Below, piece by piece: positions 3,785 through 57,437 of a stretch of DNA of 64,000 nucleotides. The translations under genes and the position numbers were made by a program. A model generated the notes under the pieces. That model saw nothing but the letters and a program-made list of their open reading frames with translations. It did no database searches and was not told the DNA's origin. Origin of the DNA: Thomasclavelia ramosa DSM 1402 (lineage in GTDB: Bacteria > Bacillota_I > Bacilli_A > Erysipelotrichales > Coprobacillaceae); contig NZ_CP036346.1 in the NCBI RefSeq assembly GCF_014131695.1, positions 1,116,001 to 1,180,000 on the forward strand, given 5' to 3'. The first letter of the stretch is position 1; every line of letters starts with the position of its first letter.

Positions 3785-5617
3785 TTGCAAAAAATAAGAC
3801 AGCTAGATGATGTATTGGCTAATAAAATCGCTGCTGGTGAGGTGATTGAAAGACCGGCAAATGTAGTTAAAGAACTAGTCGAAAATAGTATTGATGCAAA
3901 CAGTACGAAGATAGATGTGATTATTGAAGAAGGTGGATTAAACTTGATTCAAATAATTGATAATGGTGAGGGAATGGTCAAAGAAGATGCCTTACTATGT
4001 TTTTCACGTCATGCTACTAGTAAAATCAAAGATGATCAAGATTTGTTTTGCATTCAAACTTTAGGGTTTAGAGGTGAAGCAATTCCTTCGATTGCTTCAA
4101 TTAGTAATTTTGAATTGAAAACGAGTACAGGAGGAACAGGGACAACTGTTACTTATGAATATGGACGCTTTGTTGAGTGTAATGAAAGTGATAGTAAAAA
4201 AGGGACTAATATCAAAGTTGAAAAATTATTTCAAAATGTCCCAGCTCGATTAAAATATATAAAATCGACTAATGCTGAGTTTGCTAATATTCAAACATAT
4301 TTGGAACGACTATCTTTATCTCATCCACACATTGCTTTTATGTTAGTTCATAATGGCAGAACAATTTATAAGACCAATGGAAATGGTAATTTGTTGGAAG
4401 TTATCTCGAACATTTATGGATTAAATGTTGCCAAAGCAATGATTCCAGTGGATTTTGAAGATGATGAATTTCATGTGACGGGTTATGTTTCAAAAATTGA
4501 TGTGAATCGTGCTAGTAAGAATCATATGGTGACAATGGTAAATTCACGGGTAGTTAAAAATAAAGTGAGTGTTGATAGTATTAATAATGCATATCGTCGA
4601 TATTTAGCTGATAAACGTTATCCAATTGCGATTGTTAATATTGAAATAGATCCTTATTTAGTAGATGTTAATGTGCATCCCTCAAAGCTGGAGGTACGTT
4701 TTTCTAAAGAAAGTCAATTACGTGAATTAATTTATCAAGGTGTTAGTGATGCTCTTGCAAAAGTTAATTTGACTTACGATGCGACCGCTGAATATAAAAA
4801 AACTAAGGCGCCTTTGAATTTGGAACAACCTAGTCTTGATTTAACTTATGAGTCAGTACCCATTAAAACAATAGAGCAACCACGATTTGAAGCTGATTTT
4901 CCTCAAAATGATCAAGAAGTTGTTTTTAAAGACGCATCTTTCGATGATTTTACTTTTGTTAAGGAAGAAACTAGTGAATACATTATCCCCGATCAACAAA
5001 TTATTGAGACAAAAGTTGAGCCACGTGAAAAATTAATGAAAAAGAAGTTATTTGTTAAAGGACAGGTTCATGGTACATATATAATTTGTGAAGATGAAAC
5101 AGGAATGTATATTGTTGATCAGCATGCTGGGCAAGAAAGAATCAATTATGAGTATTTTTTGGAAAAATATCAAAATCTTGATCTATCAATGCGGGATTTA
5201 TTAGTACCGATCACACTTGAATATCCTTTAAGTGAATTTTTGATTATTGAGGAAAGGAAAGACTTATTGACTAAAGTTGGAATTAATCTTGAGGTTTTTG
5301 GTAATAGCGGTTATGTAATAAAGCAATTACCGTTATGGATGCAAAATATTGATGAGCAAGTATTTATTGAAGATATGATGATGCAGTTATTAAATGATAA
5401 TAAAATCGATGTCATCAAATTACAAGATCATGCAATTGCTACGCTTAGTTGTAAAGCTTCATTAAAAGCAAATACACATTTATCAACCGAGGGGATGCAA
5501 AATATTATTGATAATTTAATGCGTTGTGATAATCCATACGTTTGTCCGCATGGAAGACCAACAATTATATATTATTCAACTTATGAAATTGAAAAGTTAT
5601 TTAAGAGGGTCGTGTAA
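3785..5617 (+). CDS. mutL: DNA mismatch repair endonuclease MutL
   Basis: 610 residues. GHKL ATPase at the N-terminus with NKIAAGEVIERP, the Glu-Asn region KELVENSIDA, DNGEGM and TLGFRGEA. The C-terminal dimer domain carries the endonuclease motif DQHA-x2-E-x4-E (about residues 445-456), SCKASLKAN, and CPHGRPT (about 587-593). It is therefore the nicking type used by bacteria without MutH. Start choice: a GTG at 3776 abuts the mutS stop, but AGGTGA (3774-3779) is correctly spaced for the TTG at 3785, and MQKIRQL then aligns with the usual MAKVIQL start. Overlaps miaA by one base (TAATG), so coupled translation is likely. Confidence 0.95.
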   Translation: MQKIRQLDDVLANKIAAGEVIERPANVVKELVENSIDANSTKIDVIIEEGGLNLIQIIDNGEGMVKEDALLCFSRHATSKIKDDQDLFCIQTLGFRGEAIPSIASISNFELKTSTGGTGTTVTYEYGRFVECNESDSKKGTNIKVEKLFQNVPARLKYIKSTNAEFANIQTYLERLSLSHPHIAFMLVHNGRTIYKTNGNGNLLEVISNIYGLNVAKAMIPVDFEDDEFHVTGYVSKIDVNRASKNHMVTMVNSRVVKNKVSVDSINNAYRRYLADKRYPIAIVNIEIDPYLVDVNVHPSKLEVRFSKESQLRELIYQGVSDALAKVNLTYDATAEYKKTKAPLNLEQPSLDLTYESVPIKTIEQPRFEADFPQNDQEVVFKDASFDDFTFVKEETSEYIIPDQQIIETKVEPREKLMKKKLFVKGQVHGTYIICEDETGMYIVDQHAGQERINYEYFLEKYQNLDLSMRDLLVPITLEYPLSEFLIIEERKDLLTKVGINLEVFGNSGYVIKQLPLWMQNIDEQVFIEDMMMQLLNDNKIDVIKLQDHAIATLSCKASLKANTHLSTEGMQNIIDNLMRCDNPYVCPHGRPTIIYYSTYEIEKLFKRVV

Positions 5618-53158: not shown

Positions 53159-56100
53159 TTAGTTATGTCTTTTCTTTTTTAATACTAATGGTAATACTAA
53201 CGCACCCATAATAAATAATGAAGTGTATAGAGCGATATTTGTATTATCACTAGTTTTGACGTTACCTTGTTTAACATCGTCTTTTTTATTAGCATCTGGA
53301 GTGTTAGGTGTAGTTGGCTCTGCTGGAGTAACTTTAACTAAATTATTGATGGCATTTTGTAAGTTGTCATATGCGGTTTCAATTTCGGTAACAGTGGCAA
53401 CTTCATTGGCTGCAACAGCTTTTACATCAATAAGAATATTAGCTAATGCTGCCCAGCTTTCACTAGTGTATTCTGCACTATTCAATGATTCAGCTTTATT
53501 AATTAATTCGTTAAGGGCATCTTTATTTGGTTTTAGTCTTAGCTGTAAGAAGGCTCTTACTAATTTATCGTGCGCTTCTTGAACTTCTGGTTCTAAAGCA
53601 TTTTGATTATTAACAACAACTTTAGCTTCATCTAAAACAGGTAACATTGCATTCCAAGTGCTTGTTAGATAATCTTCAGCATTTAGTTTAGCAATTTTTT
53701 TAATTAAATTTTCTAAATTAGTTTTATCACCTTTTTTGAAAGATAATTTTTGCATTACGTCACTTAAACGGTCAAACGATGCATTTACTTCTTCTTGCGT
53801 AGCTAAAGAAGTTCCATTGATCTGTTGAGCTTCTGCTAGAGCGGCTTTAAATTCTGTAACTACAGCAGGAACAATAGTATTTAATTCTGCTTCAGTAACT
53901 TTAAGTGCTTCCTCAATTGCAATATTTAAAAGATTCTTTTTAACTACTACGTACTCAACATTTTCGTAATTATAAATCAAATCATTGATAATATCTGTGT
54001 AGAAACTATCTTTTTGATAATTAGCAGGGTTTGCTTTAACATCACTGATCATAGCATTTAAATTATCAATATTTTCTTGAACTGCAGTATTTGTTGTAGT
54101 TTTGTCAGCCAGAGCGGTTTCGATTTTATTTATTACTAGATCTAGATCAGTCTTGTTGTAGTTGATTTTTGATTGTGTAAATAAATCATCACGTGGTGAT
54201 CCAAGTGTATACATCAGTCTTTCAAAGCTTTCGTAATCCATTTCCTTTTGATATTCTGCTCCCCATGTTTTTAATGCAAATCCAGCATAACGTGGGAATA
54301 GTGTCCTAGTCAAAATATATTCTGGTACATACCCGTGGGCATCATCCCAAATTGGGAATACTTGTCCTAATGACTTGTCAAGATTTTCTGTTAATACTTC
54401 ATCATTTCCATAATGATATGATGATTTTGAATAATGATATCTTGTAAATTCTTCATATGTCCGTTTTGGTAATGGACGGTCTAGTTTGCTCTGTCCTTGT
54501 TGTGGCCATAAATCATGATAGTTTGATGAAGAACTTGACATGATTGTATATCCAGCATTAGCTGTAGTACTGGCTTTGATTGATCCGTACATTCCTCCAG
54601 CCCAGAAATCAACAATTAGACGGCTGTCTAATGGTACTATTCCTCCTAAATCAAAGATGTTGTCATTCCATACTAGTACTTTTAAGTTTTGTTTGATTAG
54701 TTCGTCTCCCGCTTCATTGAAGAAAAGTTTGATAGCATCATGGTCTGTCGCAGCTTCATTTCCTGTCACTTGACGTGCCCATTCCTGTAAAACTGTTTTA
54801 CCGGCAGTTGTATAACCACTTTGGAAATATTCATCACCACCGATATGAATCGTTTTAGCATGGAAGAAATCTGCTGCTTCTTTATAAACAGAGATCATAT
54901 ATTCACGAACTTCCTGTTTAGAAAAGTCTAATGCTTTGGTTGAACCAGGAATGCACCATCCGCTATGGAAATTTGCTTCTTGTTCAGCGTGACCTGGGAA
55001 GTCGATTTCAGGAATAACTTCGATATTGAATTTAGCTGCATAGCTGACTAATTCATCAACTTCTTCCTGAGTCCAAAATCCACCTTTACGGTCAACAAAA
55101 TCAGCAGCAATTTTCGAATCATAACGAATACCCTCGTTGTCTTTAAGTCTCAGCTGTAAGATATTCTGTTTGTAATATGCCATTTGTTCAATCTGATCTT
55201 TTAACCATTGAATTGAATAGTATCTTCTTCCAGAGTCGACCTGAAGCCCACGAACAACTTGATCACTGTAATCTTGAACAGAACCAGCAGGAAGGCTTTT
55301 TCTTTGAGCGAAGGCCTGCAATATAGTCATTGCACCATTTTGAATACCTTGAATGTAGTCAGAATGGATGACAGTTTTGTCTTGATCGATATCGATTTGA
55401 TAGGCATCGATTTTGCTTGCTGTTACAGCTGCAGGAAGTTCAAAAGTGATTGGCTGTTTAACTAAAACAATACCTTCACCTTGTGAGGCATCAGTAACAG
55501 TTTTGATCGTATAGTCTTTGATCAGCCCTTTTTTAACCATACTGTCGGCTAGATATTGGGTCTTAGCTTTACTGAATTCATCAGTTGAAAAAACTTGCTT
55601 AGCTGTATTTAATTTATAAATTTCATTTCCATTTTTTTCAAAATTCTGAACAGCTGGGACAGTTTCTGGGAATTCAGAGAAGTCTGCATCATAGTTGATA
55701 GAAGCTTTCTCTTCAACTGTTTTGTTTTCTACTTTTTCAATTTTGAAATCATCGATATAGAAAACTCCAGAACCTAAGTCATTACCAGTCCATTCCATAT
55801 AGGCAAAACCGTAAATTTCATTAGTTCTAGGACCAGTAGTGATAGTATGTTCATTAGTCTGCCACTCAGTGCTGACCTTTTGGTTAGTTTGGATATTAGA
55901 AGCAAGCTGCCAAGGAGACGTAGTATGCTTACCTTCAATATCAAGAACTCCGGTAGACATCTTTACTCCGGATTCATTCCAGTAATGGGTAGTAATCTTG
56001 TATGTAGTGTTAGGCTCAACGTTATGGAAAATAACATTAACACTACCTTTACCATAATTATAACGCCAGATAGGAACTTCAGAAGGATTTTCAGGTTTAG

Positions 56101-56311
56101 GATTCCCAACTTTGATAGAGTATTTTCCGTCAAAAGCTTTTTCGTCAGTTCTGACAGCTTTGTAGAGTTGAACTTCATTTTTATCAATTTCGTGTTCAAA
56201 AGACGGATTAGTAATTAGTGGAGCATCGGCAGCTTTAAGTGGACCGACGTTGATCGACATAGCCATAAGTGAGGCCATGACAATCGGTAATAATCTCTTT
56301 TTCTTTTTCAT
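53159..56311 (-). CDS. Secreted, wall-associated GH20 beta-N-acetylhexosaminidase
   Basis: 1050 residues. Signal peptide 1-28 (LLPIVMASLMAMSI, cut after LKA or AADA). A beta-sandwich, CBM-like domain at about 30-192 starts ITNPSFEHE and ends FYIDDFKIEKVE. GH20b-like domain about 200-350. Catalytic barrel about 352-720 with the Asp-Glu pair D493-E494 in KTIHIGGDEYF and FPGHAE upstream. Three FIVAR-type helical repeats at about 790-1005. The C-terminus is membrane helix plus KKKRHN after VKTSD, a sorting-signal shape without LPxTG. Releases terminal N-acetylhexosamine from glycans such as mucin; lacto-N-biosidase activity is an alternative. Divergent from an RpiR regulator. Confidence 0.9.
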   Translation of the reverse strand: MKKKKRLLPIVMASLMAMSINVGPLKAADAPLITNPSFEHEIDKNEVQLYKAVRTDEKAFDGKYSIKVGNPKPENPSEVPIWRYNYGKGSVNVIFHNVEPNTTYKITTHYWNESGVKMSTGVLDIEGKHTTSPWQLASNIQTNQKVSTEWQTNEHTITTGPRTNEIYGFAYMEWTGNDLGSGVFYIDDFKIEKVENKTVEEKASINYDADFSEFPETVPAVQNFEKNGNEIYKLNTAKQVFSTDEFSKAKTQYLADSMVKKGLIKDYTIKTVTDASQGEGIVLVKQPITFELPAAVTASKIDAYQIDIDQDKTVIHSDYIQGIQNGAMTILQAFAQRKSLPAGSVQDYSDQVVRGLQVDSGRRYYSIQWLKDQIEQMAYYKQNILQLRLKDNEGIRYDSKIAADFVDRKGGFWTQEEVDELVSYAAKFNIEVIPEIDFPGHAEQEANFHSGWCIPGSTKALDFSKQEVREYMISVYKEAADFFHAKTIHIGGDEYFQSGYTTAGKTVLQEWARQVTGNEAATDHDAIKLFFNEAGDELIKQNLKVLVWNDNIFDLGGIVPLDSRLIVDFWAGGMYGSIKASTTANAGYTIMSSSSSNYHDLWPQQGQSKLDRPLPKRTYEEFTRYHYSKSSYHYGNDEVLTENLDKSLGQVFPIWDDAHGYVPEYILTRTLFPRYAGFALKTWGAEYQKEMDYESFERLMYTLGSPRDDLFTQSKINYNKTDLDLVINKIETALADKTTTNTAVQENIDNLNAMISDVKANPANYQKDSFYTDIINDLIYNYENVEYVVVKKNLLNIAIEEALKVTEAELNTIVPAVVTEFKAALAEAQQINGTSLATQEEVNASFDRLSDVMQKLSFKKGDKTNLENLIKKIAKLNAEDYLTSTWNAMLPVLDEAKVVVNNQNALEPEVQEAHDKLVRAFLQLRLKPNKDALNELINKAESLNSAEYTSESWAALANILIDVKAVAANEVATVTEIETAYDNLQNAINNLVKVTPAEPTTPNTPDANKKDDVKQGNVKTSDNTNIALYTSLFIMGALVLPLVLKKKRHN

Positions 56312-56370
56312 ATATCTCTTTCCCTTTCATGATATGATAATAAATAAAATATAGCAGTTATTTGCGATAA

Positions 56371-56378
56371 CACCTCCT
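56371..56378 (-). promoter_or_regulatory. Orphan AGGAGGTG in the GH20 5' region
   Basis: A near-perfect Shine-Dalgarno sequence on the minus strand, 60 bases upstream of the GH20 start, with no usable start codon at normal distance. The gene's own ribosome site (AAAGGGAAAGAG) is next to the ATG. Could stabilise the mRNA 5' end as stab-SD elements do. An ATACA-GAAA-TGTAT dyad lies a little upstream (about 56399-56412). Confidence 0.4.
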
Positions 56379-56475
56379 GATTAATATGATGATTTGTCTA
56401 TACATTTCTGTATCTAACTAAATTGTAAAGGGCATGAGGAAATGTTACAATATAGAAAATTGCAAATGATTTTTA

Positions 56476-56537
56476 ATTTTTGAATAGATTTTCAAAAATA
56501 GAATATCTTTTCACTTCTTGAAAAGTAGTGTTATAAT
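56476..56537 (+). promoter_or_regulatory. rpiR-type gene promoter with two dyad operators
   Basis: TTTCAC (56509-56514), 17 bases, TATAAT (56532-56537). Dyad 1: ATTTTTGAA (56476-56484) and TTCAAAAAT (56491-56499). Dyad 2: CTTTTCA (56507-56513) and TGAAAAG (56519-56525), covering the -35. Both share a TGAAAA/TTTTCA-like core, as expected for two sites of one regulator. Confidence 0.6.
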
Positions 56538-56617
56538 AATGGCATGGGTTAGTGCTGTTATAGTTTTATGAATAAGAGGGGAACAATAAAAGCCAAAGAA
56601 TTTTGAAGTAGTACGGG

Positions 56618-56654
56618 AAAGGAGGATATCGAGGAGATTCCTCGATAACAGACA
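56618..56654 (+). promoter_or_regulatory. Ribosome site separated from its start codon by a perfect hairpin
   Basis: AAAGGAGG (56618-56625), then TATCGAGGA (56627-56635) pairing with TCCTCGATA (56639-56647), then seven bases and the ATG at 56655. Linear spacing is 29 bases, far too long. With the stem folded out it is 8, which is ideal. Confidence 0.6.
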
Positions 56655-57437
56655 ATGGCTGGTTTTATTTATAAACTGCAAAATATTGTAAACACATCAC
56701 CAGATAGCGATGATACAAATATAAATATCGCTAGATGCATTTTAAAAAATATTGATAAAATAAAAAAACGGACTTCATTGCAAGATTTTGCTGATATTTG
56801 TTATACATCACAATCAAGTATTAGTCGTTTTTCGCAGTATTTAGGTTATGCAAATTTTAATGATTTTAAAGCTGACTGTATTGGGATTCAAGAAGAAACA
56901 GATGAAATGATCATAGATACTCGAGCGACTAAAAAAATTAATTGTGTTGACTATGCCCAAGCAATTTCTGAAAGTTTAGTAAGAATGCAAGAAACATCAA
57001 TTGATCAAGAAATTGAACAGTTGTGTGAGTATATTCATAATGCTAAAAGAATTTTTATTTTTGCAACTCATATTCCTGGCGATCTTGCCTGCATTATGCA
57101 ACGTGCAATTTTAACAACGGGTAAGTTTATTGAATTTTATCCTCGTAAAGAGCATCAAATGGAGGTTGCTAAGCAAATCCGTCGAGATGATCTCTGTATT
57201 TTTTTATCATTAGAAGGGACATTATTAATGGAAAAAGCAATCACTATTCCAGCAATTATTTCATTAGCTAAAAATGTTCTGATAACTCAAAATGTTCATA
57301 TTAAATTTTCAGAACAATTTACACAAGTAATTGGATTAGGTGGGCATGATAGTGAAAGTATTGGAAAATATAAGTTATTGTTCTTTATTGATTGTTTGTT
57401 AAATCGTTATTATCATAAGTACATAGTAAATAATTAA
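56655..57437 (+). CDS. RpiR/MurR-family regulator with SIS domain
   Basis: 260 residues. N-terminal HTH_6 domain (about 1-80: ARCILKNIDKIKKRTSLQDF, YTSQSSISRFSQYLGYANFNDFKAD) and a C-terminal sugar-isomerase (SIS) domain (about 115-245, RIFIFATHIPGDLACIMQRA). SIS regulators sense phosphorylated amino sugars. Divergence from the GH20 gene points to N-acetylhexosamine-phosphate or a related sugar as the signal. The second half is less conserved than in textbook members. Translation appears to start through a hairpin-bridged ribosome site. Confidence 0.88.
   Translation: MAGFIYKLQNIVNTSPDSDDTNINIARCILKNIDKIKKRTSLQDFADICYTSQSSISRFSQYLGYANFNDFKADCIGIQEETDEMIIDTRATKKINCVDYAQAISESLVRMQETSIDQEIEQLCEYIHNAKRIFIFATHIPGDLACIMQRAILTTGKFIEFYPRKEHQMEVAKQIRRDDLCIFLSLEGTLLMEKAITIPAIISLAKNVLITQNVHIKFSEQFTQVIGLGGHDSESIGKYKLLFFIDCLLNRYYHKYIVNN

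Follow-up and report, generated by a model that had tools for sequence, protein, structure and literature searches.

A hairpin as a probable structural bridge inside the split ribosome binding site of a chromosomal regulator gene in Thomasclavelia ramosa

The regulator gene, its neighbours and its leader

The window, a 64,000-nt stretch of the single 3.25-Mb contig of Thomasclavelia ramosa DSM 1402, carries on its forward strand a gene for a MurR/RpiR-family regulator of 260 aa with HTH_6 and SIS domains (56655–57437). In the Pfam search, HTH_6 (rpiR) scored above the cut-off and SIS below it. The N-terminus MAGFIYKLQN was shared with close orthologs, and distant ones began with MAGFIF or MSGFIF. 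Divergent from the regulator, on the reverse strand, lies a gene for a GH20 beta-N-acetylhexosaminidase with a FIVAR domain (53159–56311), which was also the neighbour in most orthologs. In genome G196 the regulator adjoined GH20, PTS transporter and GH1 genes, in G192 it adjoined PTS and GH1 genes, and in G036 GH20 was not adjacent. Because of these GH20, PTS and GH1 neighbours, we infer a role of the regulator in amino-sugar use.

A putative regulator promoter was recognized by consensus match at 56508–56537 (+), with a −35-like TTTTCA and a −10 TATAAT preceded by TG. Over the −35, a pattern match to TTTTCA-N5-TGAA (56509–56523, +), which is separate from the hairpin described below, marks a candidate DNA operator. 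Orthologs also had the palindrome TTCA-N5-TGAA upstream, once each in L035 and L038 and twice in L036, and in the divergent intergenic region it may be the operator of both the RpiR regulator and the GH20 gene. A 12-codon ORF (ATGAATAAGAGG...TTTTGA, 56569–56607) had no SD of its own and ended 10 nt before AAAGGAGG; it is probably a chance ORF, because its stretch was missing from the shorter L035 leader. No intrinsic terminator or attenuator (GC-rich stem followed by a T run) was found in 56300–56700.

The Shine-Dalgarno sequence (SD) of the regulator, AAAGGAGG, was read at 56618–56625 (+) and the start codon ATG at 56655–56657, which leaves a gap of 29 nt. Between them, a 21-nt hairpin (56627–56647, +) has a perfect stem of 9 bp closed by a loop of 3 nt and consists of the left arm TATCGAGGA (56627–56635), the loop GAT (56636–56638) and the right arm TCCTCGATA (56639–56647). 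When the hairpin is folded, the distance from SD to ATG shrinks to 1 + 7 = 8 unpaired nt. This layout had been described in a first-pass annotation made from the letters alone, and all of its coordinates proved correct. No ATG, GTG or TTG occurs between AAAGGAGG and ATG 56655, and a TAA at 56646–56648 (+) is in frame with that ATG, so starts farther upstream are unusable; the use of an upstream start, which the annotation had listed among the findings that would refute its reading, is thus excluded.

The 3′ end of 16S rRNA, GGATCACCTCCTTTCTA, was found in six copies in the genome, and AAAGGAGG is a near-perfect complement of its anti-SD, with which GGGAAAGGAGG is able to pair further. The computed duplex energy was −16.4 kcal/mol for this SD versus −8.7 kcal/mol for a GAGGAG within the left arm (56631–56636), which lies 18 nt from the ATG and is locked in the stem. 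No SD-like word was present 3–14 nt before ATG 56655. The annotation had correctly noticed the GAGGAG and had proposed it as a competing site, but the motif was in no other ortholog's stem and is therefore incidental.

Orthologous leaders and covariation of the stem

Orthologs were searched in 315 genomes of the order (E ≤ 1e-40), and eight were obtained including the 56655 gene, in genomes labelled Thomasclavelia and Erysipelatoclostridium; the covariation set is limited because only these eight were found. No relatives turned up in the viral contigs searched. Six of the orthologs, the 56655 gene included, belong to the same family, and in four of them (the 56655 gene and three others) a hairpin stood at the same place. 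Each of these four leaders has AAAGGAG(G) followed by the hairpin, and after it either ATGGCTGG or an ATG in frame shortly 5′ of ATGGCTGG. The three additional stems were ACTAGT-TTT-ACTAGT in L035 (G005), GCTAGT-TAATTT-ACTAGC in L037 (G002) and GTAAAGTT-GATAA-AACTTTAC in L040 (G036, another genus). The hairpin was absent from L036/L039 (G017, another genus), where the ordinary short spacer AGAGGATAGGTTTT-ATG precedes the gene and the L036 ortholog is intact, and from L038 (G007), which has an 18-nt gap and a gene broken after codon 115. It was also absent from the distant orthologs L041 and L042 (41–43% identity), in which a canonical TAAGGAGGT and a short spacer stand before the same N-terminus.

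In L037 the regulator was frameshifted by 1 nt (CCCC to CCC) after codon 14, around position 3999, and two relatives thus carried a frameshifted regulator (L037, and L038 at 4348), which suggests that the regulator is dispensable or that the assemblies contain errors. L040 has an in-frame TTG within the loop, about 9 nt from the SD, and this could be used as a start instead of the ATG. In the tree, the 56655 gene grouped with L040 (95/95) and the other same-family rows were not separated, so a single gain with later losses and several gains fit it alike.

Base pairs were counted manually, with the leaders placed in register by SD and loop, because MAFFT did not align the four leaders in this way. 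In each hairpin-bearing gene the loop started 10 nt past the SD octamer, and the gaps between SD and ATG were 29, 29, 30 and 29 nt, the last measured to the upstream in-frame ATG. All 24 inner pairs (six in each gene) were Watson-Crick, and double changes were seen at every one of the six positions; when arms were swapped among the 56655-gene, L040 and L035/L037 versions, pairing was retained at only 1–2 of 6 positions. The arms of the 56655 gene shared 3 of 18 nt with L035 and 7 of 18 with L040. The L035 and L037 stems were alike at 14 of 18 nt, so the distinct stem versions number three among the four genes. With outer pairs counted past one or two mismatches, the folded distance from SD to AUG was 8 nt for the 56655 gene, 6 nt for L035, 6 nt for L037 and 8 nt for L040 (to the first in-frame ATG); uninterrupted stems alone gave 8, 14, 12 and 8 nt, respectively. 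The conservation of pairing in relatives, which had been suggested as a check on the bridging idea, was therefore positive, with compensatory changes at all six inner pairs among the four hairpin-bearing genes.

Covariation at a fixed geometry is what selection for a bridge would predict, and a DNA operator would be expected to keep its letters. RpiR-type proteins bind inverted repeats, and the palindrome sits in the regulator's own leader, so it might be the operator of an autoregulated RpiR gene whose RNA folding is incidental. But the arms are almost wholly different between orthologs and most of the HTH stretch is preserved (CYTSQSSISRFSQYLGY / CYTSPSSISRFCQKLGY / CYTSQSSISRFAQKIGY), and a conserved recognition helix together with an unconserved palindrome argues against a DNA operator. 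The position is fixed to the SD and not to the promoter, where the other shared palindrome, TTCA-N5-TGAA, is found. Moreover, the palindrome is unique in the genome; the search gave a single match elsewhere, with three mismatches, fewer than a control pattern gave, and no second copy. We rejected this candidate operator and consider such a role highly improbable.

The same double changes bear on whether the hairpin matters for initiation at all. Some genes start without a proper SD, and L036, whose spacer is short and normal, manages without a hairpin; weak SD-like letters or an SD-independent start could likewise serve ATG 56655, leaving the stem neutral or with a role in mRNA stability. However, the interval 3–14 nt before the ATG holds no SD-like word and the GAGGAG, 18 nt away, is paired in the stem, and double changes at six inner pairs with a fixed SD distance would be unexpected for a stem that is neutral or serves stability only. 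An initiation-independent hairpin thus seems very hard to sustain.

Folding of the hairpin and the proposed mechanism

When the 29-nt gap was shuffled, stems of at least 9 bp arose with a frequency of 5e-5 (mononucleotide) to 3e-4 (dinucleotide). The corresponding per-gene chance was 0.002–0.003 for L040 and 0.06–0.13 for L035 and L037 each, and with the loop position fixed the values for the 56655 gene, L040, L035 and L037 were 1e-4, 4e-4, 0.004 and 0.005. The MFE z-score of the wider 91-nt stretch was only −1.85, so the signal rests on the perfect stem and not on overall folding energy. The predicted pair probability of the stem was about 0.96, with SD and AUG predicted free. Across the orthologs, stem stability ranged from −3.5 to −11 kcal/mol, L035 (−3.5) and L037 (−6.6) being the weaker ones; the SD strength in hairpin-bearing genes was −12.7 to −16.4, and the SDs of L035 and L037 were partly paired in silico.

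A bridge of this kind is in principle open to control, and tight control is frequent for regulator genes, so the hairpin might be a switch in which temperature, a protein, a small molecule or an sRNA opens or closes the bridge and tunes translation of the regulator. Temperature dependence in particular had been raised in the first-pass annotation, but it is unlikely, because the SD lies outside the stem and in silico the stem stayed about 95–97% formed between 30 and 42 °C, nearly unchanged. The stem-opening protein that the annotation had also suggested found no support. An RNA thermometer was rejected, as the SD was not paired at low temperature (unpaired probability 0.85 at 30 °C, 0.89 at 42 °C). 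Neither the stem sequence nor the loop is conserved, and a sequence-specific ligand site is therefore not apparent; stabilities spread over the above range are unlike those of a tuned sensor. Rfam covariance models gave no match in the leader, the only hit being a sub-threshold miRNA match 0.8 kb away. A regulated switch is accordingly an unlikely reading, and the fold is most likely constitutive; we favour this because the prediction keeps it stable across 30–42 °C and leaves both SD and AUG free.

From comparison of the leaders, we therefore consider it likely that this chromosomal regulator gene has a split ribosome binding site in which the hairpin serves as a structural bridge. The bridging proposed in the earlier annotation is strongly supported by the covariation and the conserved geometry. 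The parts expected of such a site are present: an SD spaced far from the start with no nearer SD or start codon, a hairpin that restores the distance, and conservation in close relatives. In the proposed mechanism, the 30S subunit would pair with AAAGGAGG and the 21-nt hairpin would remain folded and looped out, so that only about 8 nt, not 29, would separate AUG 56655 from the SD. Initiation would then proceed via the bridge, and the hairpin would be needed for normal expression of the regulator and would not act as a switch. It would have been maintained in the regulator mRNA across two genera, uncompensated mutations being lost because without the pairing the start codon could no longer be reached. 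Several points count against this reading: hairpin-bearing orthologs number only four, with three stem versions; L036 does without a hairpin; L037 carries the frameshift and L040 the TTG in its loop; and the L035 and L037 stems are weaker, with partly paired SDs.

Rarity, possible recurrence and comparison with known systems

The rarity of the arrangement was assessed by a whole-genome pattern search and in sampled genome stretches. The former gave 72 matches of AAAGGAGG 22–40 nt before an ATG, at 66 distinct SD sites. Nearly all of these matches had a closer start codon, and only the 56618 site both lacked one and had a stem of at least 6 bp. In a strict survey of the sampled stretches (0.86 Mb, 710 ORFs), two genes had a distal strong SD alone, and a hairpin was found only in the 56655 gene; a stricter survey, in which a normal SD was defined loosely, yielded no further convincing case. 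The arrangement had been called unusual for a chromosomal regulator gene, and under strict criteria it is indeed rare in the T. ramosa genome, with a sister species, G008, adding two uncertain cases.

In G008, two genes that we judged from their sequences to be rimM and a GNAT acetyltransferase had no ordinary SD at the likely start and showed AAAGGAG, an 8-bp hairpin and ATG instead. The rimM leader (L097 14554–15063, −; also L106) reads AAAGGAG-CTAA-ATGAAAAT-TTATAG-ATTTTCAT-AGTGAA-ATG, and the GNAT leader (L086 11045–11548, +; also L136) reads AAAGGAG-A-AGTATATT-AAT-AATATACT-AGGTAAAAATA-ATG. Their relatives had ordinary SDs in most cases, so the arrangements are species-specific, and the GNAT hairpin was absent from the relatives. 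Whether the two leaders are hairpin bridges is uncertain: the rimM gap contains a 7-codon ORF, with translational coupling as the alternative, and a weak AGGT lies close to the start of the GNAT gene. A third bridge-like site in G008, L086:9986, was rejected; its SD-like word appears to be the end of the upstream CDS, presumably serS, and its hairpin looks like the terminator of that CDS.

In the rimM leaders of relatives, an ordinary SD came after a hairpin that resembles a terminator. This hairpin (e.g. AGATGTGCNNNGCACATCT, then a T run) was conserved between the preceding gene and rimM in L107–L111 and L113–L130, that is, in most genomes of the family, and is possibly an attenuator in that operon.

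We raise tentatively, as a rather doubtful extension, that hairpin-bridged SDs are a recurrent and overlooked mode of initiation in chromosomal genes of this family, arising from small palindromes inserted into spacers between SD and AUG and kept by compensatory evolution, with the G008 rimM and GNAT leaders as younger instances. Start-site prediction that assumes a fixed SD spacer misses genes of the bridged type. The three stem versions and the hairpin-free relatives also form a natural series for testing what length of folded RNA the 30S subunit can skip.

In the open-access literature, which includes few of the older papers and is weak evidence on this point, we found no chromosomal counterpart of the T4-type bridge. 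The hairpin bridging that we did find there concerns two T4 genes, and a chromosomal case with covariation shows the structure kept in a cell's own gene. RNA thermometers and other SD-sequestering hairpins (ROSE, fourU) also have a hairpin in the translation initiation region, but in those elements the stem itself contains the SD, whereas in T. ramosa SD and AUG lie outside it and are predicted free. The leader of E. coli thrS has also been termed a split ribosome binding site, in a different sense (Sacerdot et al., cited in PMC3936740). Like the T. ramosa regulator, thrS is a bacterial chromosomal gene whose ribosome-binding elements are parted by RNA structure. In thrS, however, the SD lies near the AUG and what is set apart is a single-stranded site farther upstream; in T. 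ramosa, the SD and AUG themselves are separated.

The closest comparison is with phage T4, in which a hairpin is described as reducing the spacing between SD and AUG from 22 to 5 nt in gene 38 and from 27 to 11 nt in gene 25 (PMC3014915). According to the same review, bridging in these genes was supported by mutational and DMS evidence and was confined to close T-even relatives (Nivinskas 1999, Malys and Nivinskas 2009, as reviewed in PMC3014915). The T4 and T. ramosa bridges have no sequence homology. As in genes 38 and 25, a strong SD in T. ramosa is too distant, a hairpin shortens the working distance and the arrangement is confined to close relatives; but the T4 cases are phage genes and experimentally proven, whereas the T. 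ramosa case, known from sequence, is a chromosomal regulator gene in which the distance would fall from 29 to 8 nt and in which the stem covaries across genera.
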